Positions 23,175 through 52,356 of a stretch of 53,833 nt of DNA are shown piece after piece. Source of the DNA: a virus. The notes below the pieces were generated by a model. The model was not told the origin of the DNA. It worked only from the letters and a program-made list of their open reading frames with translations, and made no database searches. Numbering within the stretch: the first letter of the stretch is position 1; each line of letters starts with the position of its first letter. The DNA lies in the IMG/VR virus record IMGVR_UViG_3300030012_004039, positions 1 through 53,833 of that record. One strand, written 5' to 3'. A program made the position numbers and the translations under genes.

Positions 23175-23878
23175 ACTTTTTCCCAATCTATAATAGGTGA
23201 TAACATATTTCCTTCTACGTGAGTTGAATATCCTGGTATGCATGATATTAAATTAGAACCTTTCTCCCATAGTTCAGTAAACTTGTCATGATCTTTTGTC
23301 CACTTTTCTACTAAATCACAATACTTAACATGTATATCAAAATGTTTTTTAAGTGTACTAAATTTACAAGCGTATGTATTAGTTGTTGATGGAGTAGATC
23401 TCCAATGAACACTTTTAGTAGCTATAACTTTTGAAGTTAAATTTTCATACATAGATAAATAATATTTATCAGGGTGATCATATAAAGTAAAATAATCTGC
23501 TCCTACCATATTTACACCCTCTTCTAATATATCTACCCATCCATATTTATGAAGATAATCATCTTCTACAAAATAAATTATATCTTCATCATTATATGGT
23601 TTTTCGATAACATAATTTAATAAATTTAAAAATGATTGAGCGTCATTACCACCTTTAATACTTACAGTTTTACAATCTTTATTATTTAAAAAATGATCTT
23701 CTATACTACCATTACCACTATCATGAAAAGCAGTATATTCTACTTTATCATTATACTTATCGTCAAATAAAGTTAGCATAAAATGATCAAATATTTTTTC
23801 TCTATCAAACCAAACAGGTCTAGGTTTACTAGCTGATTGTTCTGAGAAGTTACAATGTCTTTGAAATATTCTTATCAT
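23162..23878 (-). CDS. probable glycosyltransferase (GT-A type)
   Basis: 238 residues. Begins MIRIFQRHCNFSEQSASKPR; contains a Rossmann-like half and DEDIIYFVEDDYLHKYGW (about 96-113), where EDD sits at the DxD metal/nucleotide site position, then YFTLYDHPDKY and a C-terminal HV...GNMLSP. This resembles small glycosyltransferases found in capsule clusters. Overlaps the epimerase gene by 13 nt. Confidence 0.6.
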   Translation of the reverse strand: MIRIFQRHCNFSEQSASKPRPVWFDREKIFDHFMLTLFDDKYNDKVEYTAFHDSGNGSIEDHFLNNKDCKTVSIKGGNDAQSFLNLLNYVIEKPYNDEDIIYFVEDDYLHKYGWVDILEEGVNMVGADYFTLYDHPDKYYLSMYENLTSKVIATKSVHWRSTPSTTNTYACKFSTLKKHFDIHVKYCDLVEKWTKDHDKFTELWEKGSNLISCIPGYSTHVEGNMLSPIIDWEKVWKY

Positions 23879-24050
23879 TAATTAGTTCCCACATTTTACC
23901 TATTTCAGTATTTTCAGTACCTTTATAAATTTGTCCTGTTTCTTGATCGATCAGTAACCACTTCGAAGGACATAAAGTAATTATTTTTAATTCAATAGGC
24001 TTTTCTAAGTCTTTAACTTTTTTATTATTTATTATTCTAGTATTTCTCAT
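23850..24050 (-). CDS. hypothetical protein (66 aa)
   Basis: Reads MRNTRIINNKKVKDLEKPIE, then KWLLIDQETGQIYKGTENTE: a short beta-rich protein coupled to genes on both sides (overlaps of 4 and 29 nt) in the glycan operon. No function recognised. Confidence 0.55.
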   Translation of the reverse strand: MRNTRIINNKKVKDLEKPIELKIITLCPSKWLLIDQETGQIYKGTENTEIGKMWELINDKNISKTL

Positions 24051-24838
24051 AAGTACTTTAAAAAGTTTTCACCAAAATTATCAGAAATAAATTGTCTGCC
24101 GTCATCAGAAGAAGAGTGCATATTTAATGTTCGTTCATACTCTTGATTATCTCTTTCATTTTTATAGAAATCAATATTATAATCTACATGCTCTTTATTA
24201 TCAAAATTATATTCAGAGATATCAATAATAACACCTGGATTAATTTTTACTGTTCTATAACCTAATGAGTTGTAATGATTACCTATCTTATCACCTATAA
24301 ACTTATGCGGCCAGTCTTTCATAGTTTTATACCAAAGTTGAAATTTATCTAATCGAGCTCCAGCATAAAAAACAGTATCATAGATTTCTAAATTATTAAA
24401 TATTATTTTATCTTTAAAATTAGGATCAAGAGTTTTTCCTCTACAAAAATATCCGACTTTTCTTTCACGTTGTAATCCTAATGATCCTATTTTAACATCC
24501 GAGTTAAATACTTCTAAACATTGTGAAAACCATGTTTCATCAGGAAGTACCCAGTAATCGTTATCTAACGGTAAAATATAGTCAAAATCATTTTCTGAAT
24601 AATATTGAGTTAACAGTTTCCATGCACCTGGAACTCTCAAGTTTTCTTCAGGAAATATTAATCCTAACTTATACTTTTCTTGGTTTAATTCTAACCACTC
24701 TCTTGTACCATCAGTTGATCCATTATCGCAAACTATTATTTGTGAGTTAGCAGGCTTTACTTTATTTAAACATTCAATAGTTCCTTGCGTAAATGACTTA
24801 CGCTGGTATGATACAATATATATTAACAGTTTATTCAT
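24047..24838 (-). CDS. family 2 glycosyltransferase
   Basis: 263 residues. LLIYIVSYQRKSFTQGTIEC (3-22), IIVCDNGSTDGTREWL (about 34-49) and DYILPLDNDYWVLPDETW (about 85-103, DND as the DxD site) are classic GT2 motifs. A cytoplasmic transferase of the glycan cluster; donor and acceptor unknown. Confidence 0.8.
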   Translation of the reverse strand: MNKLLIYIVSYQRKSFTQGTIECLNKVKPANSQIIVCDNGSTDGTREWLELNQEKYKLGLIFPEENLRVPGAWKLLTQYYSENDFDYILPLDNDYWVLPDETWFSQCLEVFNSDVKIGSLGLQRERKVGYFCRGKTLDPNFKDKIIFNNLEIYDTVFYAGARLDKFQLWYKTMKDWPHKFIGDKIGNHYNSLGYRTVKINPGVIIDISEYNFDNKEHVDYNIDFYKNERDNQEYERTLNMHSSSDDGRQFISDNFGENFLKYL

Positions 24839-24839
24839 A

Positions 24840-25478
24840 TTAAAAAATTACTCTTATTACTTCAAACGTTTCAGCAAGATCTAAATCAACTTGATTCCCT
24901 CTAACTATTAATAATGATTTTATATACTCCTCATTAGTATAAGTTCTAAATGATTGTGAGTTATATTCTAAAATTGAATCAACTTTATTTTTTAGATCTT
25001 CTTCTTGTACTTCAATAAAACATCTATTACTTATATCTAAATTATTCCAAGGTAATTCAAAACCTAATATATTAGTCTTTTTAAACGCTCTTACTCCTTC
25101 ATTATATATAGTATTATGATCTTGATGGATATCATAAGAACTAGGTAAAAGAACTAAATCAGGTTGAATTTTCTTTCTTAATCTAATCATATGTTCTAAT
25201 ATATCTTGCCTACTTTCCGGCAACTTTCTAACTTTATATCTTAAGATTTCAATATTATCTTTAGGTATTCCTAATTTGCTTCCTGCATTAATTATTTCTT
25301 TCGACGTAATATCACTAGGAAACTCTTCAGGTATAGATTCTTCGCATATTGAAAAGGCTACATAATATACTTCTTTTCCTTCTCTACAAAATCTTGAAAT
25401 TGTAGCTCCTGCTCCTATCTCTCCATCATCTGTATGAGCTCCTAAAATTAATACTTTTTTAAATGCATTAGTTATCAT
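24840..25478 (-). CDS. PIG-L/LmbE family deacetylase
   Basis: 212 residues. The zinc site AHTDDGEIG (14-22) replaces the usual AHPDDE with a Thr and a one-residue shift (H15, D17, D18), and the second site DIHQDH (116-121) is intact. Family members remove N-acetyl groups from GlcNAc-type sugars. In this cluster it could prepare a free amine on an amino sugar for re-acylation by the neighbouring formyltransferase (25468-26451) or the acyltransferase (28834-29310). Overlaps the upstream gene by 11 nt. Confidence 0.8.
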   Translation of the reverse strand: MITNAFKKVLILGAHTDDGEIGAGATISRFCREGKEVYYVAFSICEESIPEEFPSDITSKEIINAGSKLGIPKDNIEILRYKVRKLPESRQDILEHMIRLRKKIQPDLVLLPSSYDIHQDHNTIYNEGVRAFKKTNILGFELPWNNLDISNRCFIEVQEEDLKNKVDSILEYNSQSFRTYTNEEYIKSLLIVRGNQVDLDLAETFEVIRVIF

Positions 25479-26451
25479 TTAATACCTCCTTATCATAATA
25501 TCCATACTTATTCAGATCAAAATAATGTATTAATTCTGAACCATTATTTAAAATATCTCCTTTATTCACATTACCTTCATAGTTATTAATTAATAATAAC
25601 CCTCCCATAACTTTAACAATAAATTTACCATTAGAGAATAATTCTACAACTTCACCATTAGATGCTTTTTCATAACTAAAATATAAAGTATCTAATATTT
25701 GTGCGTTATATATTATTAATTTTTTATTATTATTAAAAGTATATGCTCCATTAAATGGTTTAGTAACAGCTCTTATAAATCTTTGTAATGCATATATATC
25801 ACTATTCCAATCTATTAAACTATCACTTGGAGTTCTTTTAGGATAATATGTAGGTATAATATTTTTTTGCTTTTTAAGATTAAAATTATTATTAAAAAGA
25901 TCATTAATATTTTTTATAATTAAATAATACATTGATATTGTATTCTTAAAATGCATAGTTTCGCCTGTATCGTGTTCAGTTATATTAAACTTCACAGTAT
26001 CTAAAATATCACCTGAATCTATACCTGAATCATATTTAAATAAATTTGTATAGAAAGACTTTCTACCTTCTATAATTGACCAATTCATCGGAGACCTTCC
26101 TCTACCTAGAGGTAAATCCATACAACTTCCGTGCATTCCAAAAGCTCCTATAGAAAATGAATCTAATATTTCTCCTGGTATTAATCTTTGCCATCCTACA
26201 ACAAACGCAATATCTATATTTAAGCTACATATATATTTAATATCTTGAGAATCTTTTAAGCTGTATTTATTACAATGATATATATCTATATTATTAAAAT
26301 CCTGTAAATTGCTATAATCAGCTACCTCACATATCTTTCCTTTCTCAGGAGAAATAGTAATAATATTACTAATATTAATATGTTTTGATAAGTTATTTAT
26401 CAAAAATCTAGTTGTATTTTTACATCCAAAAATAGCTACCTTTTTATCCAT
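25468..26451 (-). CDS. sugar N-formyltransferase (Fmt/ArnA/WlaRD-like)
   Basis: 327 residues. The 10-formyl-THF-dependent core is visible: FGMHGSCMDLPLGRGRSPMN (about 104-123, catalytic His107) and DSGIDSGDIL (141-150, catalytic Asp145). The Asn usually two residues before His is Gly, as occurs in several sugar formyltransferase groups. A C-terminal substrate domain (about 200-327) follows. It probably formylates an amino group of a nucleotide amino sugar. It sits between the deacetylase and the oxidoreductase in one overlapping operon. Confidence 0.8.
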   Translation of the reverse strand: MDKKVAIFGCKNTTRFLINNLSKHINISNIITISPEKGKICEVADYSNLQDFNNIDIYHCNKYSLKDSQDIKYICSLNIDIAFVVGWQRLIPGEILDSFSIGAFGMHGSCMDLPLGRGRSPMNWSIIEGRKSFYTNLFKYDSGIDSGDILDTVKFNITEHDTGETMHFKNTISMYYLIIKNINDLFNNNFNLKKQKNIIPTYYPKRTPSDSLIDWNSDIYALQRFIRAVTKPFNGAYTFNNNKKLIIYNAQILDTLYFSYEKASNGEVVELFSNGKFIVKVMGGLLLINNYEGNVNKGDILNNGSELIHYFDLNKYGYYDKEVLNDN

Positions 26452-27451
26452 ATTTTATTCCAGCCTTATCATAAATATTTTTTATTAATATAAGAACATT
26501 TTTTGTTTCTTCCAACTTAAACTTATGAAGATTTTTATAAACATCAGGATGATTAGGACATGAACCTTGATAGGAACCATACGAGTTTGGATCTTTAGAA
26601 TATGAATAATGCTTTAGTAAATTTTCATATTTAACAGTTGAGCCGTTACTTAAAAAATTAGCTGATTCAATTACGTTTAGCGCTTTACCACCGATTTTTA
26701 AATAGCCATTTGATCCCATAAGTACTATAGAGCTTTCAATATTATGAGGTTCAGCTGCAATAGTAGATTCTATAGTACCACCGAAGCTTCCATAATCAGC
26801 TAATGAATAAACTGTATCTTCTATAACACCGTCTTTATGTTTAGTAGTATATGTATTAGTTCCTATAATTCTTTTAGGAAGACCTATAAGTAATTGTAGA
26901 ATATCTAAATAATGAATACCAGTTTCATATAATATACCACCACCTACTTTTGGTTCACCTCTCCAACCTGAAAAATATTCTAGTGGTCTTTGCCATCTTT
27001 GAGTAAATGAAAATCCTCGTATATCACCTAACAATTTTTGATTTAATATTTCTTTAGCTAACTCAACTGTAGGATTTAGACGAACTTGTAAAACGCAATA
27101 AGCATTTTTATTTTCTTTTCTAGCTACATATATAATATCTTCAATATCATTTGAAGTAAAAGCAACAGGTTTTTCAATTAATATATCACAGCAATTTTCA
27201 AGTGCAAAAATAGCCTGCTCTTTATGTAATGAATTAGGAGTAGCAATAACTATAAAATTAACATCTTCATTTACTATCATCTCTTTATAATCAGAGTATC
27301 CTTTTACTGAATATCTTGATGCTAGACTATCAACTAATGACGTTTGTATATCACATAGTGAGACTAACTTAAATTTTTTATTAGATTCTACTGCTTCAAT
27401 ATGTCGAGGAAATATTCCACCACAACCTATAATTCCAACTTTATATTTCAT
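26444..27451 (-). CDS. Gfo/Idh/MocA oxidoreductase (WlbA/WbpB-like)
   Basis: 335 residues. NAD site GIIGCGGIF (6-14), DILIEKPVAF (about 89-98; the EKP motif), and GGGILYETGIHYLDIL (about 168-183) are diagnostic of the family. WlbA/WbpB members oxidise C3 of UDP-N-acetyl-glucosaminuronate before a DegT aminotransferase installs the amine. Both a DegT enzyme (28020) and a matching hexapeptide acyltransferase (28834) lie two genes away, which supports that reading. Confidence 0.8.
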   Translation of the reverse strand: MKYKVGIIGCGGIFPRHIEAVESNKKFKLVSLCDIQTSLVDSLASRYSVKGYSDYKEMIVNEDVNFIVIATPNSLHKEQAIFALENCCDILIEKPVAFTSNDIEDIIYVARKENKNAYCVLQVRLNPTVELAKEILNQKLLGDIRGFSFTQRWQRPLEYFSGWRGEPKVGGGILYETGIHYLDILQLLIGLPKRIIGTNTYTTKHKDGVIEDTVYSLADYGSFGGTIESTIAAEPHNIESSIVLMGSNGYLKIGGKALNVIESANFLSNGSTVKYENLLKHYSYSKDPNSYGSYQGSCPNHPDVYKNLHKFKLEETKNVLILIKNIYDKAGIKYG

Positions 27452-28017
27452 TTGCTATACACGTAAAATACTTGAGGTATTGAAGAAAGAGAATCTTCAT
27501 CCCAATGTATTAATTTTAAATTATTTTTTTTAATTATATTTTTATAATCTCTAGTAAAACAATAGCTAGAACTTAATGTTTCGCCATTTTTATACCAAGT
27601 TATTACTATTACTTTTTTGCCTATTCTTGATAATTCTCTAATTAATTCATCAATTTCAGTTTCTGGGCTATGAATCAAAACTTCAAACGCACAAACAATA
27701 TCAAATTCATTATCTTTAAAAGGGGTTTTAATAGTATTATCTTTATCAATAATATATTGTTGAATTTTTAACCCTTGACTATCGCATTTTTGTTTTAATC
27801 TTTCTTCATACGCACTAGAAATATCAAAAAAGTTAATATGAGTCTGATCTTTATATAACTCTATCATACGTCCTATACCAGGACCATATTCTAATATATT
27901 TAAATTTTTAGTTATAAAAGGTTTAACTAAATTAACATGATTGTAAGTTTGAGACCTACAAAAATCATTGTTAGGATCTTTTCTATTATTCCAATAATTA
28001 ATTTTATTATATGTCAT
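27448..28017 (-). CDS. class I SAM-dependent methyltransferase
   Basis: 189 residues. Motif I ILEYGPGIGR (41-50), an acidic loop INFFDIS and motif IV-like EFDIVCAFEVLIHSP are typical of methyltransferase type 11 proteins. It may O- or N-methylate a sugar of the cluster's product. Substrate unknown. Overlaps the oxidoreductase by 4 nt. Confidence 0.75.
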   Translation of the reverse strand: MTYNKINYWNNRKDPNNDFCRSQTYNHVNLVKPFITKNLNILEYGPGIGRMIELYKDQTHINFFDISSAYEERLKQKCDSQGLKIQQYIIDKDNTIKTPFKDNEFDIVCAFEVLIHSPETEIDELIRELSRIGKKVIVITWYKNGETLSSSYCFTRDYKNIIKKNNLKLIHWDEDSLSSIPQVFYVYSK

Positions 28018-28019
28018 AA

Positions 28020-28829
28020 TTACCCTTTAAAATAATTTTCCTTAATAAATTTAGCCGTCTTTTCAGCTATAGGACAATCACCTGTAATACCTAAACGTTT
28101 AATAGCAGGCTGATCGTACACAACATAAGGATAATGACCATTCTTTATATTTCTAAAACCTAATTCAGCTTCTATTCCTTTCATATGTAACTTCATCTGA
28201 CTATAAGCTAACAAGCATAAAGGTTCAGCTAATCTAAAGTTAAAACCAATATACTCATGATGATATTTACTTGTTTGACCTTGGTTACATATAGCTCTAA
28301 CCTTATCAGAATCTATTCTAGAATCTTTAGGAATACAAATCATACCACCTTCAAAAGTATTTATATTTTTAGTCTTCTGAAATGAAAATGTACCTACATC
28401 AGACATCATACCTGCCATTCTACCTTTTGATTTAGCACCAAACGATTGAGATGTATCTTCGATAACTACTATGTTATGCTTATCAGCTATTCTATTTATT
28501 CTATCCATATCACAAACAGTACCAAATAAGTGTACAGGCATTATAGCTTTAGTTCTAGAAGTAATAGCTTGTTCGATAAGATTAACATTTATTAAATAAT
28601 CATCTTCATTTATATCTACAAACACTGGTTTAGCACCTGCAATAATTATCGATGTAACAGTAGATATAAAAGTAAATGGAGTAGTTATAACTTCATCTCC
28701 TGGTTTAAGATCCATAGACCATAAAGGAGCAATAATAGCACTACTTCCATTATTTACTGCTATACAATCTTTAAGATCAAAACGTTCCTTAACGTAATCT
28801 TCAAATATATTCCTTATAACTATAGGCAT
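28020..28829 (-). CDS. DegT/DnrJ/EryC1-type sugar aminotransferase, shortened
   Basis: 269 residues against about 370 for the family. The PLP core is complete: NNGSSA (26-31), DEVITTPFTF (45-54), VVIEDTSQSFGA (121-132; Asp125) and SFQKTKN with the Schiff-base Lys154. The N-terminus is about 20 residues short. After QMKLHMKGIEAELG the chain jumps to HYPYVVYDQPAIKRL and ends, so most of the small C-terminal domain (about 90 residues) seems deleted. It would transfer an amino group to a keto nucleotide sugar, if active. Confidence 0.8.
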   Translation of the reverse strand: MPIVIRNIFEDYVKERFDLKDCIAVNNGSSAIIAPLWSMDLKPGDEVITTPFTFISTVTSIIIAGAKPVFVDINEDDYLINVNLIEQAITSRTKAIMPVHLFGTVCDMDRINRIADKHNIVVIEDTSQSFGAKSKGRMAGMMSDVGTFSFQKTKNINTFEGGMICIPKDSRIDSDKVRAICNQGQTSKYHHEYIGFNFRLAEPLCLLAYSQMKLHMKGIEAELGFRNIKNGHYPYVVYDQPAIKRLGITGDCPIAEKTAKFIKENYFKG

Positions 28830-28833
28830 TTAT

Positions 28834-29310
28834 TTAATCTCTTATCTCTTTTATTTTAGCTGGATTACCATATGCTAGAGCTCCTTCAGGCATATCTTTA
28901 GTAACTACAGAACCAGCACCTATAAGTACGTTTGATTCTATAGTATTGCCACATATTATAGTTGAATTAGCTCCTATAGAAGAAAAGCTTTTAATTAAAG
29001 TTTTTCTAAAATTTACTCTAGTCCATTCACCTTGAGCTTTAGGATAGAGATCATTAGTAGTAATTACATTAGGTCCAATAAAAACATTATTCTCTATCTC
29101 TACACCTTCATATAAAATACTATGATTTTGTATCTTACAATCATCGCCAACTATAACTCCTGGTCCAATATGAACTCCTTCTCCAATCACACAATTTTTA
29201 CCTATTTTAGCTCCTTTACTGATATGAGAGAAAGCCCATATTTTAGTTCCCTCTCCAATAACTGTATTGCCGTCAATTATTGCAGTTTCATGTATAAAAG
29301 TATTTATCAT
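28834..29310 (-). CDS. hexapeptide acyltransferase (WlbB/WbpD-like)
   Basis: 158 residues of left-handed beta-helix hexapeptide repeats (GEGTKIWAFSHISKGAKIG, then VIGEGVHIGPGVIVG, VLIGAGSVVTKDMP). The sequence IHETAIIDGNTVIGEGTKIW closely follows the 3-N-acetyltransferases that finish UDP-GlcNAc(3NAc)A synthesis. A trimeric enzyme using an acyl-CoA donor is expected. It lies directly upstream of the aminotransferase. Confidence 0.85.
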   Translation of the reverse strand: MINTFIHETAIIDGNTVIGEGTKIWAFSHISKGAKIGKNCVIGEGVHIGPGVIVGDDCKIQNHSILYEGVEIENNVFIGPNVITTNDLYPKAQGEWTRVNFRKTLIKSFSSIGANSTIICGNTIESNVLIGAGSVVTKDMPEGALAYGNPAKIKEIRD

Positions 29311-30614
29311 AAGTCCCAGTCCTTCATTAATTGTAAAACAAAACTACTATTTTTATTTAAATCTTCTAAAGTAAAAGTTTCAGGAAATTTTAAACCAATA
29401 TTATTAGCATAATAAATAGCAGTTTGCTTAAAAAATCTATTAAACGTTTTATAATTAGCAGTAAATCTACTATTAATCATTAAAGTACCTCTACCCCATT
29501 TAAAATCCATTATAAATTTTAAACTATCAGATGCCATTGCTATATCCATAGTCTCACTATTGGATAATACTAAACTTGATGCAGTGATATCATATTTTAC
29601 ATTGATTCCTAAATCAGTAAGATGAATTATAGATGGTGTTAAATAACCAGCTTTTTTTGTCCTTAAAATAGCTTGCCAGTTATTTTTTGACTTTATTTTA
29701 GTAATCATTTTATTAAATGATTCTTGTAACTGATCAAAACTATAAGACGGTGAACTTACAAAAGGTCCTTCTATTTTACTTTGAAAATCTTTTTCATACA
29801 AATCTATATTAGTTTTATTTAATTCTTCAGACCATTCTGAATCTAATGTCCATGTATCTTCAGGATAAAAAACTAAAGTTTTACAAGGTAAAGTTTTTAA
29901 ATATTTATATGATTCTTTTATTCTAATTGTATTTTCATTCCAGTAATTATTTTCTTCATGACAAAAATAAATAAAACTTGCAAATGGTACAATGTATTTA
30001 GGATCTAAAACTTCAACTTGCTTTGATATTTGATCTTCAATAATTTCTCTAGCAATCTTAGGTCCAGTTAAATCACCTTTATTACCAACCCAATTAGCAT
30101 AACCAAACTGAGTATAAAGAACATCTATACTTCCTAATTTATCTTTTACTTCTTGTAGCATCTCTATATCATACAATCTACAATCATTAAGATTTAATAA
30201 AGAATTATCTTTATCTTTAGCATATAGCCATGAATCAAATCCATCAGTACCGTTTACAATAGTTAAATCATTACATAGTTTTTCTTCTTTAAAAGGTTCT
30301 AATTCTCTAACTTTAAATCCTTGATTAATGCAAAAATCTTTGACTTTATTATCGATAGTTTTTTGAAATAGAATAGTTATATCTTTTCTTTTTTCTTCAG
30401 GAATAGATTTAATATCAGGAACACTAAAATGGTCTGGATGTTCATGGGAGTACCATATATAATTAAAATCTAAATCAGCTAATTTAAATTTAGGGGTAGT
30501 TAGTAGATCCCAACCTTCATTAAATACTTTACCAGTATACCAAGGATCACAAACTATTCTGCTTTTCCCTGATTCTATTAATATGGACGAATGTCCTAAA
30601 AATTTTGTTTTCAT
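29307..30614 (-). CDS. metallo-beta-lactamase-fold protein (CMAH/UlaG-like)
   Basis: 435 residues. Begins TKFLGHSSILIESGKSRIVC with CDPWYTG, then the metal motif SHEHPDHFS (HxHxDH, 57-62). This N-terminal layout resembles the UlaG/CMP-sialic-acid-hydroxylase branch of the MBL fold; a second half with TPSIIHLTDLG and INSRFTANYKTFNRFF is a family-specific extension. It is the first gene after a strong promoter and heads the nucleotide-sugar gene run, so it probably acts on a sugar or lipid-linked sugar. Reaction unknown. Confidence 0.7.
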   Translation of the reverse strand: MKTKFLGHSSILIESGKSRIVCDPWYTGKVFNEGWDLLTTPKFKLADLDFNYIWYSHEHPDHFSVPDIKSIPEEKRKDITILFQKTIDNKVKDFCINQGFKVRELEPFKEEKLCNDLTIVNGTDGFDSWLYAKDKDNSLLNLNDCRLYDIEMLQEVKDKLGSIDVLYTQFGYANWVGNKGDLTGPKIAREIIEDQISKQVEVLDPKYIVPFASFIYFCHEENNYWNENTIRIKESYKYLKTLPCKTLVFYPEDTWTLDSEWSEELNKTNIDLYEKDFQSKIEGPFVSSPSYSFDQLQESFNKMITKIKSKNNWQAILRTKKAGYLTPSIIHLTDLGINVKYDITASSLVLSNSETMDIAMASDSLKFIMDFKWGRGTLMINSRFTANYKTFNRFFKQTAIYYANNIGLKFPETFTLEDLNKNSSFVLQLMKDWDL

Positions 30615-30641
30615 ATTATATTCTCTTTTTTATTATTATAC

Positions 30642-30672
30642 ATAATATATGAAAAAATTTTCATTTAAGCAA
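30642..30672 (-). promoter_or_regulatory. Bacteroidota-type promoter of the sugar-modifying operon
   Basis: Minus strand TTG (30672-30670), 20 nt, TATATTAT (30649-30642), 27 nt before the ATG at 30614. The -33 box overlaps the end of the upstream glycosyltransferase gene. It would drive the overlapping gene string from 30614 down to about 20654. Confidence 0.65.
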
Positions 30673-31672
30673 TTAATTCCTTAAATTGTTTAACTATATT
30701 TTTAGGGTTGTAAGCATCCTCAATCCACATACCAACACCTTGCATATATTCAATCATACTTTCTTTAGATATATTTTTAATAAACTGAGTTAATATTTCT
30801 CTTAATTCTTCCTCGTTACTAGTCAACGGAACAACAGGAGTTTCATACTTACCAGTTAATTTATATAAAGAATCAGAACTATTATTAATTGTACTGAATG
30901 TTAAATTAGATAGTAATAATGCTTCTAAAGATGCTAATCCATACCCTCCACAGGTTTCATTTATTTGATCTAAATAAAATAGCGATTTTTCTTTTTCTTT
31001 AATAACTTCAGAGTAAGGTATATTTTGTAATACTTTATATTTAAATAATTTTGGATCTAAATTTAAACTACTAATGATTGAGTTAAAAGTAGATGTACCT
31101 TTAATACTTGCTTTTGAAGGTATATGTAATATTGTCCAAGGCAATGTATCTATTTTTTTCTTAAAGGTATCAATAAAATTTTTAAAATTAAATTCTTTAA
31201 TATATTGATAAGGTAGAAGTGGTAGATCATTATTATTTTTAGGAGATAATCTATATAAATCTATAGCATAAAAATGTTTAAAAATTTTATCTCGCAATGG
31301 ATGTATATTATAATATCTAAATGAATCTCTATAACAGGTGCCTGGATGCCATATACAAAACTTTGCATCAATATCAAATAAATTTAAATGATATATTGAG
31401 CTAAATTTTTCAATAGTTGTATATAAATTTTGAGTAGCATATTCTTCAGAAAAAATTATATAATCACTTTCCAATAAAAATTTTTTAGAATCTTCTATAT
31501 CCTTCTTATTATATGTTGATAAATCATAATCATGCGGTGTTGTATAATTATACGGATGCTTTTCTATACAAATAGATTTAGATACAATGTCATCACTATG
31601 CTTATTTAGGCAATAAGAGTATTCAGTTAATACGTTAGCAAAATCAGCTATAGATAAAAAACTTATTTTCAT
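30665..31672 (-). CDS. probable GT-B glycosyltransferase
   Basis: 335 residues. N-terminal Rossmann-like half without strong motifs; the C-terminal half has TILHIPSKASIKGTSTFNSI (about 181-200) and NETCGGYGLASLEALLLSN (about 257-275), corresponding to the donor-binding GxxEGFGxxxxEAxxxG region of GT4-type enzymes but with E replaced by GGYG. A divergent family-4-like transferase is the best reading. Confidence 0.6.
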   Translation of the reverse strand: MKISFLSIADFANVLTEYSYCLNKHSDDIVSKSICIEKHPYNYTTPHDYDLSTYNKKDIEDSKKFLLESDYIIFSEEYATQNLYTTIEKFSSIYHLNLFDIDAKFCIWHPGTCYRDSFRYYNIHPLRDKIFKHFYAIDLYRLSPKNNNDLPLLPYQYIKEFNFKNFIDTFKKKIDTLPWTILHIPSKASIKGTSTFNSIISSLNLDPKLFKYKVLQNIPYSEVIKEKEKSLFYLDQINETCGGYGLASLEALLLSNLTFSTINNSSDSLYKLTGKYETPVVPLTSNEEELREILTQFIKNISKESMIEYMQGVGMWIEDAYNPKNIVKQFKELIA

Positions 31673-40112: not shown

Positions 40113-42056
<1,944 letters not shown>

Positions 42057-45460: not shown

Positions 45461-45616
45461 TTATACTAATTCTTCGATTATACCTATTGCTTCACTTATA
45501 ACTAATAAAATAACAGCAGCTAAAATACTAAAAGGTAAACATATATATCCTGCGATACGGATACCTGACTTAATAAAGCTTACTAACTGATGTAGTTTAG
45601 GATCTGGATAATTCAT
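45461..45616 (-). CDS. small membrane protein (51 aa)
   Basis: ATG 45616 overlapping the stop of the dCTP deaminase-like gene (TAATG), TAA 45461-45463; reads MNYPDPKLHQLVSFIKSGIR, then one TM helix (AGYICLPFSILAAVILLVIS) and a short acidic end (EAIGIIEELV). The DNA polymerase start follows after one base. Function unknown; orientation N-in/C-out or reverse cannot be fixed. Confidence 0.6.
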   Translation of the reverse strand: MNYPDPKLHQLVSFIKSGIRIAGYICLPFSILAAVILLVISEAIGIIEELV

Positions 45617-46107
45617 TATTTTCTCTGTTTATCGTTTTGAAATTGACCGTCATATAATTCACCTTCATTATTTTCATGAAAGTACATTTGAGCTACTCTA
45701 GCATTTTTTTCTATAAATAAATCGTTAGTTACAATCATAACAGTACCGATATTATCTGTATAAAATCCAGGATCAAAAATAGAGCTAGCAATTATAGCAC
45801 CGTTTCTTAATAAAGATGATCTCTGTCTTACCATTGCAGTTCTAGTAGCAGGAATATTACAACCTTCATTCATAGTTACATCATATGTACCCGGGTGCAA
45901 TAACCAACCTTCTCTACCATTTACAATATCTAACTCGATATCAACTAAATCACCTACTATAGTTTTATCAGTTAATACATGACCAATAGATCCACCAGTC
46001 TTCTTAATCTCTTTCGCACTTAAGTCGTAACCAACTTGCGCAGGTTTACCTTTAGCATTATCTAATACTATTAAACCTTCTTCTAAAATTTCTTTCGCAT
46101 TTAACAT
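45616..46107 (-). CDS. dCTP deaminase/dUTPase-family protein
   Basis: 163 residues from ATG 46107 (AGAGGTTATAAA ahead). The trimeric dUTPase/DCD core is seen as GLIVLDNAKGKPAQVGYDLS (N-terminal strand and Asp), WLLHPGTYDVTMNE, RQRSSLLRNGAIIASSIFDP (about 94-113, the conserved RSSL motif and phosphate loop) and a C-terminal IEKNARVAQMYF. It would deaminate dCTP or hydrolyse dUTP, keeping uracil out of DNA and feeding dTMP synthesis. Belongs to the nucleotide block. Confidence 0.8.
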   Translation of the reverse strand: MLNAKEILEEGLIVLDNAKGKPAQVGYDLSAKEIKKTGGSIGHVLTDKTIVGDLVDIELDIVNGREGWLLHPGTYDVTMNEGCNIPATRTAMVRQRSSLLRNGAIIASSIFDPGFYTDNIGTVMIVTNDLFIEKNARVAQMYFHENNEGELYDGQFQNDKQRK

Positions 46108-46124
46108 TTTATAACCTCTCTTAT

Positions 46125-47144
46125 TTATGAAATATGAATTAAACTTGACCACAACTCATGAGGTACATCATTACTAAACTTACTATCAGGAGCAAGTATA
46201 ACTGATACAGCATCATGAGAATGTAACGATTCTTGATGCGAACAAATAACTCTAAAGTCTTTTACTCTATCGTCTTTAATTAATTGCTCATATAATAATC
46301 TAGCAGCATCTTCTACAAACTTAAGGTAAGAACCATTAAGTTCAGCAAAAGCCATTTCATCTTCTCTCTTCACTACTACTTGAGTTTCAGTTTTAAGAGC
46401 ATTAGCGCACATCTCTTGAAGATCTTCTATCCATACTATATCGTCAAACTCTATAGATATTCTAGCAACTGAACGTTGCGAATGAGATACAGTAGCTTTA
46501 TTTCTATATTTTCTAGCATGCTCTGCAAGTTCATAAGAACAAGGACAAGCAGAAGAATATACAAAGTCGAAATGCAAGAACTTTATAAAATTACCTTTAT
46601 CATCGATATTACCTTCTAACGTACAATTATAATATTGATATCCAGCGTTATCAGATCTTAACGAAGGTTGTAAGATAGGATAAGAAAAATGTAGTCCGAT
46701 CTTTGCATCAAACGTTTCTAAATCATCTTTATACTTCATTAATATTTCATCTAACTTATCATAAACCTTTTCATCTTTATACTTATAGAAAGATCTCATA
46801 ATACGTGACATATTAATACCTTTCTTATGAGCAGCTAAAGATACAGTACCAGTAACTTTAGTTTCAAGTTCTATATCTCCTCCACCTCTCTTATCATATT
46901 TTAGAGGTAATCTAAAATTATGAATACCTACTTGTTGGATAGCTACAGGAGCTCCTTGAATAAGCGAAGACGGACCATTCTGTAAATCAGGAAACGTCTT
47001 TATATCATCCTTAGTAGGTTTATATTTAGTATCATAATCTCTATTCGGTTCATAATACTTTACTGAATGTTCATTAGCAGGAGCTTCTACAGTAGATTCT
47101 GCATCACCAATCCATTCATATTTTTCGTTACTTTTTTTATTCAT
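46125..47144 (-). CDS. folE2: GTP cyclohydrolase IB (FolE2, GCYH-IB)
   Basis: 339 residues. GTVSLAAHKKGINMSRIMRS (99-118) and VYSSACPCSYELAEH (196-209) hold the metal/catalytic Cys200 and His residues of the FolE2 family; QQVGIHNFRLPLKY and the C-terminal SHQESLHSHDAVSV also fit. It opens GTP to dihydroneopterin triphosphate, the first step of folate and of queuosine/7-deazaguanine synthesis. With QueD, QueE, QueC and QueF nearby, the latter use is likely. Strong promoter at 47167-47197 and ribosome site AAAGGAG. Confidence 0.9.
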   Translation of the reverse strand: MNKKSNEKYEWIGDAESTVEAPANEHSVKYYEPNRDYDTKYKPTKDDIKTFPDLQNGPSSLIQGAPVAIQQVGIHNFRLPLKYDKRGGGDIELETKVTGTVSLAAHKKGINMSRIMRSFYKYKDEKVYDKLDEILMKYKDDLETFDAKIGLHFSYPILQPSLRSDNAGYQYYNCTLEGNIDDKGNFIKFLHFDFVYSSACPCSYELAEHARKYRNKATVSHSQRSVARISIEFDDIVWIEDLQEMCANALKTETQVVVKREDEMAFAELNGSYLKFVEDAARLLYEQLIKDDRVKDFRVICSHQESLHSHDAVSVILAPDSKFSNDVPHELWSSLIHIS

Positions 47145-47166
47145 ATTTCTCTCCTTTAATATTGAT

Positions 47167-47197
47167 TAAATATAAGAAATTATATTCATTTATCCAA
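47167..47197 (-). promoter_or_regulatory. Bacteroidota-type promoter for folE2
   Basis: Minus strand TTG (47197-47195), 20 nt, TATATTTA (47174-47167), 22 nt before the ATG at 47144. The TTG lies in the end of the phosphoribosyltransferase gene. Confidence 0.75.
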
Positions 47198-47587
47198 CTT
47201 ATAATCTTGAATAGTTTCAGCTTCTGGTTGTTCCCAAGGATAAATAATCCAATCATCAGTTTTATGTTCAACAGACCATATATCAGGAGTAACTGCAGAT
47301 GTATGAGGTTTATAATGCAATACAGCCGTTTGATAATCTTCTGCTTTCCACTGTTTTAAAGTATGACCGCTATCAGCAATATCATCAACTATTAATACTT
47401 GCCATGAACCATAAAAATGAGGAGTATTAGTTAACGGTATATTTAATTTATGAGATAACATTACCGCAGGAATTAATCCTCCTCTAGATAGTCCGTGTAT
47501 ATACTTAACATCTTCAAAGTTATTATTTATACCATCAGCTAATATATCAACTAAATCTTCAATGTCATGCCAATCTAAAGTAATCAT
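47186..47587 (-). CDS. phosphoribosyltransferase-fold protein
   Basis: 133 residues. The PRPP loop VLIVDDIADSGHTL (64-77) is intact, preceded by YIHGLSRGGLIPAVMLSHKL (the purine PRTase glycine-rich start). It resembles xanthine/hypoxanthine-type PRTases shortened in the hood region. It could salvage purine bases, or conceivably attach ribose phosphate to a deazaguanine base, since it lies within the preQ1 gene block. Ribosome site GAGAGAGG upstream. Confidence 0.75.
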   Translation of the reverse strand: MITLDWHDIEDLVDILADGINNNFEDVKYIHGLSRGGLIPAVMLSHKLNIPLTNTPHFYGSWQVLIVDDIADSGHTLKQWKAEDYQTAVLHYKPHTSAVTPDIWSVEHKTDDWIIYPWEQPEAETIQDYKLDK

Positions 47588-48357
47588 ACACCTCTCTCAG
47601 TATCATAAGCAATAATATGATCTCGACCAGTCATATTATATCCATGCTCTGCAACCATCTCAAATATTAATGGATACATTTTAATTAATTGTTCTCTAGT
47701 ATCGCCTGCAGGCATAACAAAAGTTTTATCTTTCGGTATATTAAGCTCAACTCTATAATCTTCTATCTCTTTAAGATTTTCATCAGTTCCATCCCATACA
47801 GGTTTATAATGATAATCTTTATGAAAATTAATCATACGTTTTATAGAATCAGTATTTAGTCTTTTTCTATTATGAATTTTAATAAATCTTTCGTCAACAA
47901 CTTTCCCAGCAGGTGTAATAGCGCCAACAACAGGGACGCTATTACTAAATTTAGGACTAAGGCTAATAACGTCAATAGGATAATCGGTTTCAACAAAAGC
48001 AGATCCTTCAGTCTCGATAGTAATAATAATATTTCTTTCATGAGCAAAATGCGTTAACTCATTAACCAACGCTGGATGCATAGTTGGTGACCCACCGGTT
48101 AACATCATTTCTTTTACTTGTGGGTTCTCGTCATATATTTTGACTATATCATTAAAGGTAAACGTACCTTTTTCTGGATGTATAGAAGTATACCATGAAT
48201 CACACCAACCACCTTCTCCGAAGTAGCAACGGTGAGTACAGCCAGTTGTTCTGACTGCAATAGTTGGTCGACCGAATCTTGAACCTTCTGACTGCACACA
48301 ACGATATACTTCTAAAACAGGAAGTATTTTATCGTAATCTTCTATACGTTTACGCAT
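47584..48357 (-). CDS. queE: 7-carboxy-7-deazaguanine synthase, radical SAM (QueE)
   Basis: 257 residues from ATG 48357 (a TTG nine bases upstream is too close to the GGAGGAGG ribosome site). LEVYRCVQSEGSRFGRPTIA (15-34) is the QueE N-terminus. The cluster motif is Cys40-x3-Cys44-x7-Cys52 (CTHRCYFGEGGWC) rather than the standard CX3CX2C; MLTGGSPTMHP follows as SAM-binding. It converts 6-carboxytetrahydropterin to CDG. Overlaps queC by 8 nt and the PRTase by 4 nt. Confidence 0.85.
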   Translation of the reverse strand: MRKRIEDYDKILPVLEVYRCVQSEGSRFGRPTIAVRTTGCTHRCYFGEGGWCDSWYTSIHPEKGTFTFNDIVKIYDENPQVKEMMLTGGSPTMHPALVNELTHFAHERNIIITIETEGSAFVETDYPIDVISLSPKFSNSVPVVGAITPAGKVVDERFIKIHNRKRLNTDSIKRMINFHKDYHYKPVWDGTDENLKEIEDYRVELNIPKDKTFVMPAGDTREQLIKMYPLIFEMVAEHGYNMTGRDHIIAYDTERGV

Positions 48358-49135
48358 GCTTCGCAAGTACCTCCTCCACGTGTTTCTTTGCTACTTCCCA
48401 ACCATCAATATACTCAACAGGATCTTTTCTACCTAAAGCGATAAAAGCTTCGATTCTTTCAACTGAAGAAGCTGATTTATAATCAGATCTTCCTAATGAA
48501 TCAGGCTTATAAGATGTATTAGTTCTCTTATAAACTTCGTTAAAGTCAATATTCATTTTATCACAACACTTTAATCCATCTTGTAATATATCTAATTTAT
48601 CTCCATATAGATAAGGTGTATAATAACTTACACTTTGAGCATTCCAGTTACCTTCAGCAAACGCTTTATAATCTGCATCTCTAAACTCTTGTCTACAATC
48701 AGGATATATTGCGTGATCTCCAGCATGAATACCCATAGCAATCTGTACTTCGCACTCTTTTTCATTAGCTATAGATAAAGCTACTGCCTGGATTAACGAA
48801 GAAAATATTTTATTTCTATTAGGTACTACTGTATCTTTCATATTTTCTTCTTCATAGTGACCTTCCGGTACTTCTTCTCCTCCTTGTACTAAATTAGAAC
48901 TAATCATATCTTTTAATCCTAAAAGAGTAATACATTGATAATTTACAGGGTATCCATTTTCTTTTAAATAACCTATTAATTCTGCTGCTCTTTTAAGTTC
49001 TATATTATGTTTCTGTCCATAATCAAAACTCATAGCAGTTACTTCATAATCGTTTGCCAACAGGTGTAGCAGAACTGTTGACGAATCCATACCACCACTT
49101 AACGATAGTACAGCTTGTTTTTTACTTTTAGCCAT
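48350..49135 (-). CDS. queC: 7-cyano-7-deazaguanine synthase (QueC)
   Basis: 261 residues from ATG 49135 (GGAG six bases upstream; an ATG at 49147 is less likely). The ATP-binding PP-loop is SLSGGMDSST (11-20), with SFDYGQKHNIEL, VVPNRNKIFSSL and MGIHAGDHAIYPDCR following the family. QueC turns CDG into preQ0 using ATP and ammonia. The usual C-terminal four-Cys zinc site is absent: residues 202-232 (NTSYKPDSLGRSDYKSASS) contain no Cys at all, while VERIEAF is retained. Confidence 0.85.
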   Translation of the reverse strand: MAKSKKQAVLSLSGGMDSSTVLLHLLANDYEVTAMSFDYGQKHNIELKRAAELIGYLKENGYPVNYQCITLLGLKDMISSNLVQGGEEVPEGHYEEENMKDTVVPNRNKIFSSLIQAVALSIANEKECEVQIAMGIHAGDHAIYPDCRQEFRDADYKAFAEGNWNAQSVSYYTPYLYGDKLDILQDGLKCCDKMNIDFNEVYKRTNTSYKPDSLGRSDYKSASSVERIEAFIALGRKDPVEYIDGWEVAKKHVEEVLAKHA

Positions 49136-49147
49136 TTTATTCTCCAT

Positions 49148-50050
49148 TTATTGTCTTAATGTTTTTTCGTTAACAAAATCTTTATCCGTAAACTCACCAG
49201 GAATAAGCATATCTGAAGTAGCTCTAACTGGATTAATATCTATACCACCTCTACGTGTATATAAACAACAAACCATTAACTCTTCAGGCTTAAACCTATC
49301 CATCAAATGCTTATAAACCATTTCACATATCTCTTCATGAAAGTGAGATACTTTCCTATGCGATACTACATATTTAGCAAACGATTCTGCAGTTACAGTT
49401 TCTTCACCTTTCATATATACGTATATATCACCCCAATCAGGTTGGTTAGTAACTCTACAATTAGATCTTAACAAGTCAGTATGAAAATAAACTTCATCAC
49501 CATCTTCACCTTCTAATTGACTTTCATCAGATTTATAAGCTGTAAAATCTAGAGTATCTAGATCTACTATACTCTCTATATTTTGAAATCTATCGAATCC
49601 TATCCACATATCATTCCCATAAGGGTCTAAATCTTTAGTTGTATGTAATTTACATTCAACATTATCTTCTAGTAATTCCGATAGATCTTTAGATACACGA
49701 GTTTCTATCTCGTTAATACATTCTTCTTTAGTATCTCCGAACTTAGACATATTAAATGAGTTTAAATATAATTTAATACTTTTAGATTCAACGTGATATT
49801 TAGAATCAGCAGAACAAACTATCTTTAATAAACCAGAAACTGGTCTACCTTTTTTAGTTAACGCTGATACTTCATATGCATTCCATACATCATAACCTAT
49901 AAATGGCAACTTTTTTTCGTTAATACCATATGCGGTTCTATTTAATTCTCTAGGTACTTTTACAAGTAGTGACTTATCATACAAATCTGAATAAGCACTT
50001 ACTGTTTGACCTAAATGTTTACTAGCAATTTCAATTACTTGATTACTCAT
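49148..50050 (-). CDS. queF: NADPH-dependent 7-cyano-7-deazaguanine reductase (QueF)
   Basis: 300 residues, bimodular (type II) QueF. The first module has HVESKSIKLYLNSFNMSKF (substrate-binding Glu and ESKS motif), the second LRSNCRVTNQPDWGDIYVYM (catalytic Cys in SNC) and FHEEICEMVYKHL. It reduces the nitrile of preQ0 to the aminomethyl of preQ1 with two NADPH. So this phage goes to preQ1, not preQ0. Overlaps the P-loop kinase gene by 8 nt. Confidence 0.9.
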   Translation of the reverse strand: MSNQVIEIASKHLGQTVSAYSDLYDKSLLVKVPRELNRTAYGINEKKLPFIGYDVWNAYEVSALTKKGRPVSGLLKIVCSADSKYHVESKSIKLYLNSFNMSKFGDTKEECINEIETRVSKDLSELLEDNVECKLHTTKDLDPYGNDMWIGFDRFQNIESIVDLDTLDFTAYKSDESQLEGEDGDEVYFHTDLLRSNCRVTNQPDWGDIYVYMKGEETVTAESFAKYVVSHRKVSHFHEEICEMVYKHLMDRFKPEELMVCCLYTRRGGIDINPVRATSDMLIPGEFTDKDFVNEKTLRQ

Positions 50051-50573
50051 TTATTGTCTCCTTTATTTGTTTAATTCTACTTTTAACTGAGCCTGTTAAG
50101 TGAATAACAGGTACTTCACATTCTAATATATACTGTTCAAATAGCTTAACTATCTGTTTTTGAAATCCTTCATCTACACTTCTTACTCCGTCATCTTCCA
50201 TATCGAACTCAGGCGATAAATAAAATATATAATCGTATTTATCTATAATTTTAGTAAATACATTTTCAGCGAAATCCATAACCCATTCAGCTATCTGACC
50301 TTTCTCATACATACATCTAGTATATACTACACCGTCCAATGCACACCTATCCATTACTGCTTTCTCTTTTAATACATTTGATATATGACTATTCATAATT
50401 AATAGTTGAGTCATATCATCACCACCTTCATTAATCTTAAGACCTTTCTTTGTCATACGTCTAGTTATTTCGTCAATAAACTCGTAATCATATTTAAAAT
50501 CTTTATCTTTTTTTAACTCGTTAAGCAAAGTAGTTTTACCGGTACTCTGCGCTCCTGTAAATGCTATTCTCAT
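50043..50573 (-). CDS. P-loop NTPase / nucleoside-kinase-like protein
   Basis: 176 residues. Walker A GAQSTGKT (7-14) at the N-terminus, EFIDEITRRM, AVMDRCALDGVVYTRCM (substrate/DR motif) and YDYIFYLSPEF are as in NadR-type/AAA_28 kinases and deoxynucleoside kinases. It could phosphorylate a nucleoside, nucleotide or NAD precursor. Its place within the preQ1 block suggests nucleotide metabolism, but the substrate is open. Confidence 0.7.
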   Translation of the reverse strand: MRIAFTGAQSTGKTTLLNELKKDKDFKYDYEFIDEITRRMTKKGLKINEGGDDMTQLLIMNSHISNVLKEKAVMDRCALDGVVYTRCMYEKGQIAEWVMDFAENVFTKIIDKYDYIFYLSPEFDMEDDGVRSVDEGFQKQIVKLFEQYILECEVPVIHLTGSVKSRIKQIKETINE

Positions 50574-51097
50574 AATTTTTCTCTTAAAAAATTAACCCAC
50601 ATATTTAAACTTCTATCTCTTAATATACGAAAAAAATCTTCAAGTTCCAAATCAAACGTATTAAATCTTTCTTCTAAAATAATTTCACCTTCATCTACTC
50701 CTTCAGTAACTCTATGTAATACTGCGCCTGCAACAGGATGCTTACTTTCGAATGCTCTTATTTGCGGATCTTTACCTTTTAATTCAGGATATTTAGTTAT
50801 TAGACCCGGGTGACCATTATATATTTCATATTTATTACAAATTTCAGGTGGCATTATTCTTAACCATCCATGTAAAGTAATAATAGGATTTTCATATAAC
50901 CCACAAACAAACTCCAACTGCTTTAAATCAGGTTTATTAGCTACTTCAGAATAATAAGGAATATTTTCGTTTATCTTTCTAACATCATTAGGTCTATGAT
51001 TTGTAATTATAATACTAGGACGTTTACCTAATTTATCTATAATATCTACTATCTCAGAGCCCGTCTGACTAAAAAATGCAATCCAAGGTCTAGCCAT
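50570..51097 (-). CDS. PurN-like formyltransferase within the preQ1 block
   Basis: 175 residues from ATG 51097 (the longer in-frame start would add an improbable hydrophobic tail). The formyl-THF transferase triad is complete: Asn94 and His96 in YNGHPGL, and Asp135 in GVDEGEI, with TLHGWLRIMPPEI upstream and GAVLHRVTEG between. It is shorter than PurN and lies in a preQ1/DpdA block, with no purine synthesis genes nearby. I infer that it formylates the aminomethyl group of preQ1 (base or in DNA); ordinary GAR formylation is the alternative. Confidence 0.75.
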   Translation of the reverse strand: MARPWIAFFSQTGSEIVDIIDKLGKRPSIIITNHRPNDVRKINENIPYYSEVANKPDLKQLEFVCGLYENPIITLHGWLRIMPPEICNKYEIYNGHPGLITKYPELKGKDPQIRAFESKHPVAGAVLHRVTEGVDEGEIILEERFNTFDLELEDFFRILRDRSLNMWVNFLREKL

Positions 51098-51878
51098 TTG
51101 CGTAAGTCCTAAAATATTGAATATTATGATTAATATCATAAAGTTGCTCATTAGTTATTTCTACATCTAATAAATCTACTAACTTTATAGATTCTTTAGT
51201 TTGTAATCCGTAATGTTTATAAGCTATACCTTTAATTCCATGAACGATAGGGTTACTAGTATCTACTGACTCTATCCATTTATAACTATGATATAAAGCA
51301 AACTCTTGAGGCAATCCACAACCTAACAAATGATGAGGTTTATTAGTATTTATTACTCCTGCTTTAAGTAAATTAGCTAACATTGCTGCTCTACCTAACA
51401 TCCAACTCATATACTTATTTTCATGAGGAACTATTTCTTCGTATACTGAATAATCGAATGATATTGCAATTTTATCTACTTCAGCATGCTTATCCATATA
51501 TACATAACAATCCGCTATTTCATCAGGAGTTTTACCTTGTACAACACCTATCTTTTTACCCGGTATATTTTTATAGTTTCTATTCCAATCTTCCATCTGC
51601 TTCATAGTTTTTCCAACATCTTCTAATGCATCAGGTACTATATATTCAGTAGGTTTTAACTTTTCAACCCATTTAGCGAAAGAATCATTATCGTAAGCTT
51701 CACCTAATTCGAAAATACTATTATCTAATAATACATGTCTACCTAATTTTACACTATCCATATAAAATTTAAGATACTCTTCATCTTTATCAAACAGATG
51801 AACTAAAGCATAATCATAATCATTAAAATCTAAACTTTTTTGAAATAAACATTTCGGAACTTCATGTGATATTAACAT
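51090..51878 (-). CDS. dpdA: DpdA/TGT-like transglycosylase (short form)
   Basis: 262 residues. Motifs line up with tRNA-guanine transglycosylase and phage DpdA proteins: HVLLDNSIFELGE (48-60, substrate Asp52), YIVPDALED (about 79-87), IGVVQGKTPDEI (110-121, VQG), KPHHLLGCGLPQEF (180-193) and SVDTSNPIVHG (204-214, candidate nucleophile Asp206). The TGT zinc-binding C-terminal domain is absent, as expected for the DNA-acting phage branch. It would exchange guanine in DNA for preQ1. Ribosome site AGGAGATAGTT; overlaps the formyltransferase by 8 nt. Confidence 0.8.
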   Translation of the reverse strand: MLISHEVPKCLFQKSLDFNDYDYALVHLFDKDEEYLKFYMDSVKLGRHVLLDNSIFELGEAYDNDSFAKWVEKLKPTEYIVPDALEDVGKTMKQMEDWNRNYKNIPGKKIGVVQGKTPDEIADCYVYMDKHAEVDKIAISFDYSVYEEIVPHENKYMSWMLGRAAMLANLLKAGVINTNKPHHLLGCGLPQEFALYHSYKWIESVDTSNPIVHGIKGIAYKHYGLQTKESIKLVDLLDVEITNEQLYDINHNIQYFRTYANG

Positions 51879-51880
51879 AA

Positions 51881-52339
51881 CTATCTCCTATAAATTGCTG
51901 TATTTTTACCATGCTCCATAAACTCTACCTCTCTTATAATAACTCTATCTTCTGTCTCTTCATAAATAAATTTACTTAATTTATTGTATATATATTCAGC
52001 AAATTTTTCTGCACCAGTAGCATCTATCTCCCTTAACTGAATAATACCTGAAGCATGAAGATTTCTAAAATTATTAATATAAGGATCATCTTTAGCTACT
52101 ATAACGGTATGATCAAACATCCAATCCATCCACTCTTTAGGTGACTTTCCATCTATTTTAGTTTTAGCTCTTTTCATGCCACCGAAATCCCATACCCAGT
52201 TTCTATGATCTAAATCACCTTCAAAGGTAACTCTAAATGATACACCATAACCATGTAAATATTGACAGTGAGTTGTATTAGCTTTCCATTGTCTAAAACA
52301 ACAACTAAAACCATCAAATAATTTAGTACTTCTATACAT
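51881..52339 (-). CDS. queD: 6-carboxytetrahydropterin synthase-like (QueD)
   Basis: 152 residues from ATG 52339, which has GGAG six bases ahead; the ATG at 52351 lies only 5 nt after the promoter -7 box. HCQYLHGYG (24-32) holds the catalytic Cys25, DFGGMK, MFDHTVIVAKDDP and ATGAEKFAEYI follow QueD. Two of the three usual zinc His positions differ (FSCCF for FSxxH, LHGY for LHGH), apparently a variant shared by phage/marine QueD relatives. It converts dihydroneopterin triphosphate to 6-carboxytetrahydropterin for QueE. Confidence 0.8.
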   Translation of the reverse strand: MYRSTKLFDGFSCCFRQWKANTTHCQYLHGYGVSFRVTFEGDLDHRNWVWDFGGMKRAKTKIDGKSPKEWMDWMFDHTVIVAKDDPYINNFRNLHASGIIQLREIDATGAEKFAEYIYNKLSKFIYEETEDRVIIREVEFMEHGKNTAIYRR

Positions 52340-52356
52340 AACTTTCTCCATTATTA

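Follow-up and report, generated by a model that had tools for sequence, protein, structure and literature searches.

Within a 53,833-nucleotide stretch of viral DNA, hereafter the window (positions 1 to 53,833 of IMG/VR virus record IMGVR_UViG_3300030012_004039, and a portion of a 104,035-base virus record), we analyzed a minus-strand operon of overlapping genes, spanning 46125 to 52351, that is a candidate system for placing a formylated 7-deazaguanine in phage DNA (Table 1). Gap analysis gave its layout as QueD, a 2-nt gap, the transglycosylase DpdA, an 8-nt overlap, a formyltransferase, a 4-nt overlap, a P-loop kinase, an 8-nt overlap, QueF, which abuts QueC, a 17-nt overlap, QueE, a 4-nt overlap, a short phosphoribosyltransferase (PRTase), a 41-nt gap, and FolE2. 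The original prediction for this DNA had described FolE2, QueD, QueE, QueC, QueF, and a DpdA gene resembling tRNA-guanine transglycosylase (TGT) as one block, and all six were found where it had placed them, on the minus strand; its inventory was nevertheless incomplete, as it had not listed the PRTase or the kinase, both part of the same overlapping chain. The 8-nt overlap that it had reported between the formyltransferase and DpdA is exact, with the true formyltransferase start at 51097, as in relatives.

Table 1. Genes of the candidate modification operon and features of the window and of related viral loci (L numbers).
Feature	Length (aa)	Location	Strand	Support or setting
QueD-like 6-carboxytetrahydropterin synthase	156	51881..52351	-	PF01242 E 2e-15; phrog_2389 E 4e-39
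DpdA, DNA-guanine transglycosylase	262	51090..51878	-	61% to immuto_2-6A DpdA; AlphaFold2 model vs TGT structures E 2e-8
DpdN-type formyltransferase, candidate for preQ1	175	50570..51097	-	PF00551 E 3e-10; GAR transformylase-like fold
P-loop kinase, AAA_28/NadR-kinase/thymidylate-kinase-like	176	50043..50573	-	PF13521 E 7e-19; phrog_2107 E 4e-27
QueF, NADPH-dependent preQ0 reductase	300	49148..50050	-	36% to E. coli QueF, motifs kept
QueC		48350..49147	-	PF06508 E 1e-36
QueE-like radical SAM 7-carboxy-7-deazaguanine synthase	260	47584..48366	-	phrog_2076 E 3e-47; PF04055
Short xanthine/guanine-type PRTase	133	47186..47587	-	NCBIfam xanthine PRTase E 6e-12; PDB 1vdm E 2e-12
FolE2, type IB GTP cyclohydrolase, first step from GTP	339	46125..47144	-	NF010200 above cut-off, E 2e-80
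dCTP-deaminase/dUTPase-like gene		45616..46152	-	PF22769 E 7e-11; 28-nt overlap with FolE2
GroEL and GroES pair		40127-42056	-	by sliding clamp and family B DNA polymerase
Surface-sugar cluster		21571-31672	-	
Second formyltransferase		25468-26451		in surface-sugar cluster
Type I FolE		L006:10839-11560		slot of window FolE2
P-loop kinase		L004:10819-11361		adjoins DpdA
GMP-reductase-like gene		L029:8552-9535		between formyltransferase and kinase
GNAT		L083:6120-7076		fused to kinase
GNAT		L163:9548-10009		between kinase and QueF
FkbH-like HAD-GNAT protein		L082:3306-5218, L167:6897-8809		between DpdA and kinase, beside glyoxalase-fold gene
GNAT		L099:9601-10014		just upstream of DpdA
Protein without Pfam match	349	L163:8006-9052		between DpdA and kinase
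PRTase-FolE fusions		L259:4974-5867, L262:3998-4900, L263:3902-4795, L264:3962-4849		phages with another DpdA type

The DpdA-like protein had no match in Pfam and NCBIfam searches; its relatives include the annotated DpdA of Flavobacterium phage immuto_2-6A and, at 47% identity, a hypothetical protein of CP220-group Campylobacter phages. An AlphaFold2 model built from 11 relatives (predicted local distance difference test [pLDDT] of 93.4) returned only TGTs among its top 50 matches in the Protein Data Bank (PDB), relatives share the Asp motifs LDNS and DTS without exception, and the GVVQG and HLLGC motifs align collinearly with E. coli TGT. Because two routes from sequence alone were weak (a profile searched against the PDB found no chain, and an hhalign comparison with E. 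coli TGT had a low probability), the fold is identified by structure prediction. The Pfam TGT model had no match in five phage records, two of which carry a known DpdA relative; it therefore misses such relatives and is unusable for counting DpdA genes. As expected of a phage DpdA system, the genes for the precursor preQ0 (FolE2, QueD, QueE, and QueC) share an operon with DpdA.

Family searches back the assignments of FolE2, QueC, QueF, QueD, and the QueE-like radical SAM protein. Compared with E. coli QueF, the window protein keeps SNC, QPDWG, HE, and the NADPH motif ESKSxKLYLNSFN, and thus has the NADPH motif and the catalytic Cys and Asp of a nitrile reductase, as against a QueF-L amidotransferase; preQ1, not archaeosine, is therefore the expected product. 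The closest relative of the window, L006, is 84 to 96% identical in most shared genes and 73 to 77% identical in the PRTase and formyltransferase, and carries a type I FolE at the position that FolE2 occupies here. We read this difference as a recent replacement, at one position, of an enzyme by an unrelated one that catalyzes the same step.

Structure prediction, proposed earlier as a check on the formyltransferase, gave a model with a pLDDT of 91.7 whose structural matches are glycinamide ribonucleotide (GAR) transformylases. The Asn/His/Asp triad had been called intact, and this is borne out: N94, H96, and D135 correspond to the catalytic residues of the GAR transformylase PurN and are invariant across 13 diverse members. 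With this triad, a position beside DpdA and QueF, and a relative in immuto_2-6A (54% identity; 77% in L005 and L006), the protein has the features of DpdN. It is very unlikely that the enzyme instead moves some non-formyl group, or works as a deformylase or hydrolase, making the final base another aminomethyl derivative: the formyltetrahydrofolate deformylase PurU is its weak second match, and the formyl donor is a presumed one, but the window enzyme retains the LRI folate-side motif along with the whole catalytic triad and does not have the extra N-terminal domain of PurU proteins.

We consider it more improbable still that the gene is a true PurN that boosts purine synthesis in a phage whose DNA carries plain preQ1. 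Its nearest PDB relatives by both structure and sequence are PurN proteins, and cyanophage P-SSM7 has an annotated PurN-type gene; however, the window protein scores 43 bits against the PurN NCBIfam equivalog, for which the cut-off is 150. In PurN a Gly-Ser-Asn loop holds the substrate phosphate, whereas the window protein reads SQTGSE there (SQTGxE in the family), so that PurN Asn13 aligns with Glu15, a residue found in 91/91 distinct members retaining the SQTG loop. A fixed Glu where phosphate should bind argues against GAR as the substrate, and Glu15 would be suited to recognizing the guanine edge of preQ1. The original prediction had also stated that the gene has no purine-synthesis neighbors, which holds in that no annotated operon neighbor is a de novo purine gene but not for purine metabolism as a whole, since the operon includes a purine-salvage-type PRTase.

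Relatives of the formyltransferase and DpdA were gathered by scanning a 2.9-million-contig viral collection. Loci were collected by DpdA similarity within the clade of the window DpdA, and the counts describe that clade rather than all DpdAs. The formyltransferase was present in 108 of the 113 distinct loci with DpdA and QueF, always at most 1.5 kb from DpdA and in 95 cases within 200 nt, an association that also counts against the PurN reading; with the cassette found again in over 100 viral loci, a chance grouping is excluded. In searches of the annotated phage collection, the CP220-type Campylobacter phages, whose genomes encode a related DpdA together with the kinase, gave no DpdN or QueF match. 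The formyltransferase tracks the capacity for preQ1 synthesis, as would an enzyme that acts on the preQ1 amine.

Gene content, order, overlaps, active-site residues, folds, and co-occurrence together make it highly probable that the operon makes 7-(formylamino)methyl-7-deazaguanine in phage DNA, as the original prediction proposed; the missed PurN cut-off, the loop Asn replaced by Glu, and the proximity to DpdA all support the assignment, and from these we infer the identity of the base. FolE2, QueD, QueE, and QueC would convert GTP to preQ0, which QueF would reduce to preQ1; the DpdN-type enzyme would formylate the aminomethyl nitrogen, with 10-formyl-tetrahydrofolate as the most likely donor, and DpdA would insert the deazaguanine base into completed DNA in exchange for guanine. 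We lean slightly toward formylation of the free base before insertion, because DpdN is acidic, has a minimal PurN fold, and bears no extension for binding DNA. The PRTase most likely would convert guanine freed by DpdA to GMP, perhaps helped by the P-loop kinase, and so return it to the GTP pool that feeds FolE2. By analogy with other 7-deazaguanine phages (PMC6884629), the modified base may shield the DNA from host restriction. Several observations weigh against this scheme: QueD, QueE, QueC, and QueF each score under their NCBIfam equivalog cut-offs; QueD reads CCFR in place of the zinc-binding AAHR-type His; the PRTase was not found in 56/113 loci and the kinase in 23/113, some of which are truncated; and host PRTases could do the same recycling job. 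A nearby His may take over the zinc role in QueD, and the QueD of L099 likewise lacks the AAHR zinc His; as the PRTase and kinase are missing from many loci, neither is indispensable. That the pathway supplies host tRNA queuosine is scarcely credible, even though QueD, QueE, QueC, and QueF are standard precursor enzymes for it, because a formyl group would block the amine that QueA needs and the short DpdA is akin to those of phages with reported modified DNA (PMC6884629).

The top curated match of the PRTase, xanthine phosphoribosyltransferase, falls under the equivalog cut-off, the window protein being a short form, and its best solved relative is a purine PRTase; the PRPP (phosphoribosyl pyrophosphate) loop (VDDxxDSGxT) and a WIxxPWE C terminus are kept. 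Of the 56 loci that have both genes, 50 place the PRTase immediately upstream of FolE. Four phages with another, longer DpdA (Stenotrophomonas Bhz54, Vibrio VpKK5, Pseudomonas NP1, and Sphingomonas MMDA13) have a FolE of about 295 to 300 aa whose first ~115 residues are the short PRTase, with PRGG, hydrophobic-DDxxDSGxT, and WxxxPWE motifs; a viral PRTase profile matched these fusions at E values of 5e-13 to 9e-9, against 0.69 for the best of 1000 shuffled controls, and DpdA is adjacent to the fusion or one gene off in all four. The fusion proteins are annotated merely as GTP cyclohydrolase. The PRTases of Cellulophaga phiST and Brevundimonas MaInes were left out as support, having no recognized DpdA alongside; that of MaInes does adjoin FolE.

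Each DpdA exchange releases one guanine per inserted base. At full G replacement in 100 progeny with a 104-kb genome of 30.7% GC, we calculate that about 3.2 million guanines would be freed, or about 5 mM in 1 fL, far above the solubility of guanine, which is tens of micromolar; the DpdA group of the window reportedly does replace G fully. Genome context, with the PRTase beside or fused to FolE, suggests recycling of the guanine released by DpdA, and conversion to GMP and then GTP would both clear guanine and feed FolE. A GMP-reductase-like gene in one locus (L029) likewise points to guanine nucleotide handling. The other possibility, that the PRTase makes a nucleotide from the 7-deazaguanine base, is unlikely, though better placed than the alternatives above: xanthine-guanine PRTases take oxopurines, which deazapurines resemble in shape, and a short form without part of the usual fold leaves the substrate uncertain, but a nucleotide route is superfluous where DpdA inserts the base, and the fusion to FolE suggests a role where the pathway begins, in GTP supply, and not where it ends. 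PMC6884629 and PMC7472734 do not mention a phosphoribosyltransferase.

Five of the 113 loci lack the formyltransferase (L083, L099, L163, L167, which is a longer copy of L082, and L219), and four of them carry a GNAT acyltransferase near DpdA. Among 75 formyltransferase-bearing records searched with the GNAT model PF13673, none had a match within 1 kb of the DpdA-QueF span, and the few matches found lay at least 16 kb away; by exact count, a split of 4/5 versus 0/75 would arise by chance about three times in a million on the assumption of independent loci, which holds only partly. The four GNATs are hardly alike (best pairwise E value of 0.002), which suggests that they were gained separately, and those of L083 and L163 match Pfam GNAT models weakly. 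This arrangement fits a slot for acylation of the preQ1 amine in which formyl is the usual choice, and suggests undescribed acyl-preQ1 DNA bases in the GNAT-bearing loci. The L163 locus also has a protein that looks amidoligase-like by eye. Taken as a whole, a closed guanine cycle, in which DpdA ejects guanine and a minimal PRTase, free or fused to FolE, returns it as GMP to the next deazaguanine, together with GNAT-acylated preQ1 bases where the formyltransferase is missing, is a tentative proposal to which we give something short of even confidence.

Matches of the kinase to NadR, deoxynucleoside, and thymidylate kinases are weak. It is present in 90/113 loci and directly follows DpdA in Campylobacter phage CP220 too; it thus adjoins DpdA in both Flavobacterium-type and Campylobacter phages and is possibly an unnamed component of DpdA systems. 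The dCTP-deaminase/dUTPase-like gene next to FolE2 probably serves nucleotide metabolism, outside the modification proper. Elsewhere, the window contains a GroEL and GroES pair and a large surface-sugar cluster with glycosyltransferase-like genes, a sugar epimerase, a DegT-like aminotransferase, a PIG-L-like deacetylase, and an acyltransferase. The second formyltransferase of the window, which lies in that cluster, looks like a sugar N-formyltransferase; it was rejected as a preQ1 enzyme on account of its formyl-transferase C-terminal domain and glycan cluster setting.

These results link an uncultured phage with one particular DNA base that is rare, show that the DpdA-DpdN-kinase-QueF cassette is widespread among viral contigs, and raise the questions of where the guanine ejected by transglycosylases goes and whether acyl groups other than formyl decorate preQ1 in DNA. 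The base, under the name fdPreQ1 (2'-deoxy-7-(formylamino)methyl-7-deazaguanine), and its enzyme, DpdN, have reportedly been named already, in a pathway said to comprise fdPreQ1, DpdN, and DpdA3, with the preQ1 formyltransferase beside DpdA and QueF as in the window and with immuto_2-6A among the phages studied; to our knowledge, that work describes neither a PRTase role nor GNAT-bearing variants. The formyl-preQ1 base and DpdN chemistry thus appear to be known, the window being a further instance, and the PRTase-FolE link and the GNAT variants look new. Neither was found in the literature searched, which did not cover the text of Cui et al. 2023 (Nucleic Acids Res 51:9214), a study listed by title among the references of PMC13329287 and PMC12783734.

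Three known systems bear comparison with the operon. Streptococcus phage Dp-1 has FolE, QueD, QueE, QueC, a QueF-type enzyme, and a DpdA, as the window does; unlike the base proposed here, its DNA carries dPreQ1 without a formyl group, replacing about 1.7% of G (Hutinet et al. 2019, PMC6884629). The CP220 group shares the related DpdA followed by the same kinase family and differs in the absence of the DpdN and QueF matches noted above and in its DNA, in which dADG has been reported (PMC6884629 citing Crippen et al. 2019). Closest is immuto_2-6A (vB_FspM_immuto_2-6A, NC_055915), which differs in its type I FolE (FolE2 in the window), in lacking QueC within the cluster, in having other genes interspersed, and in its polymerase, which is of family A rather than the family B of the window, but which has DpdA (61% identity), the formyltransferase (54%), the kinase (38%), and QueF (57%) in an order identical to that of the window, along with the PRTase, QueE, and QueD.

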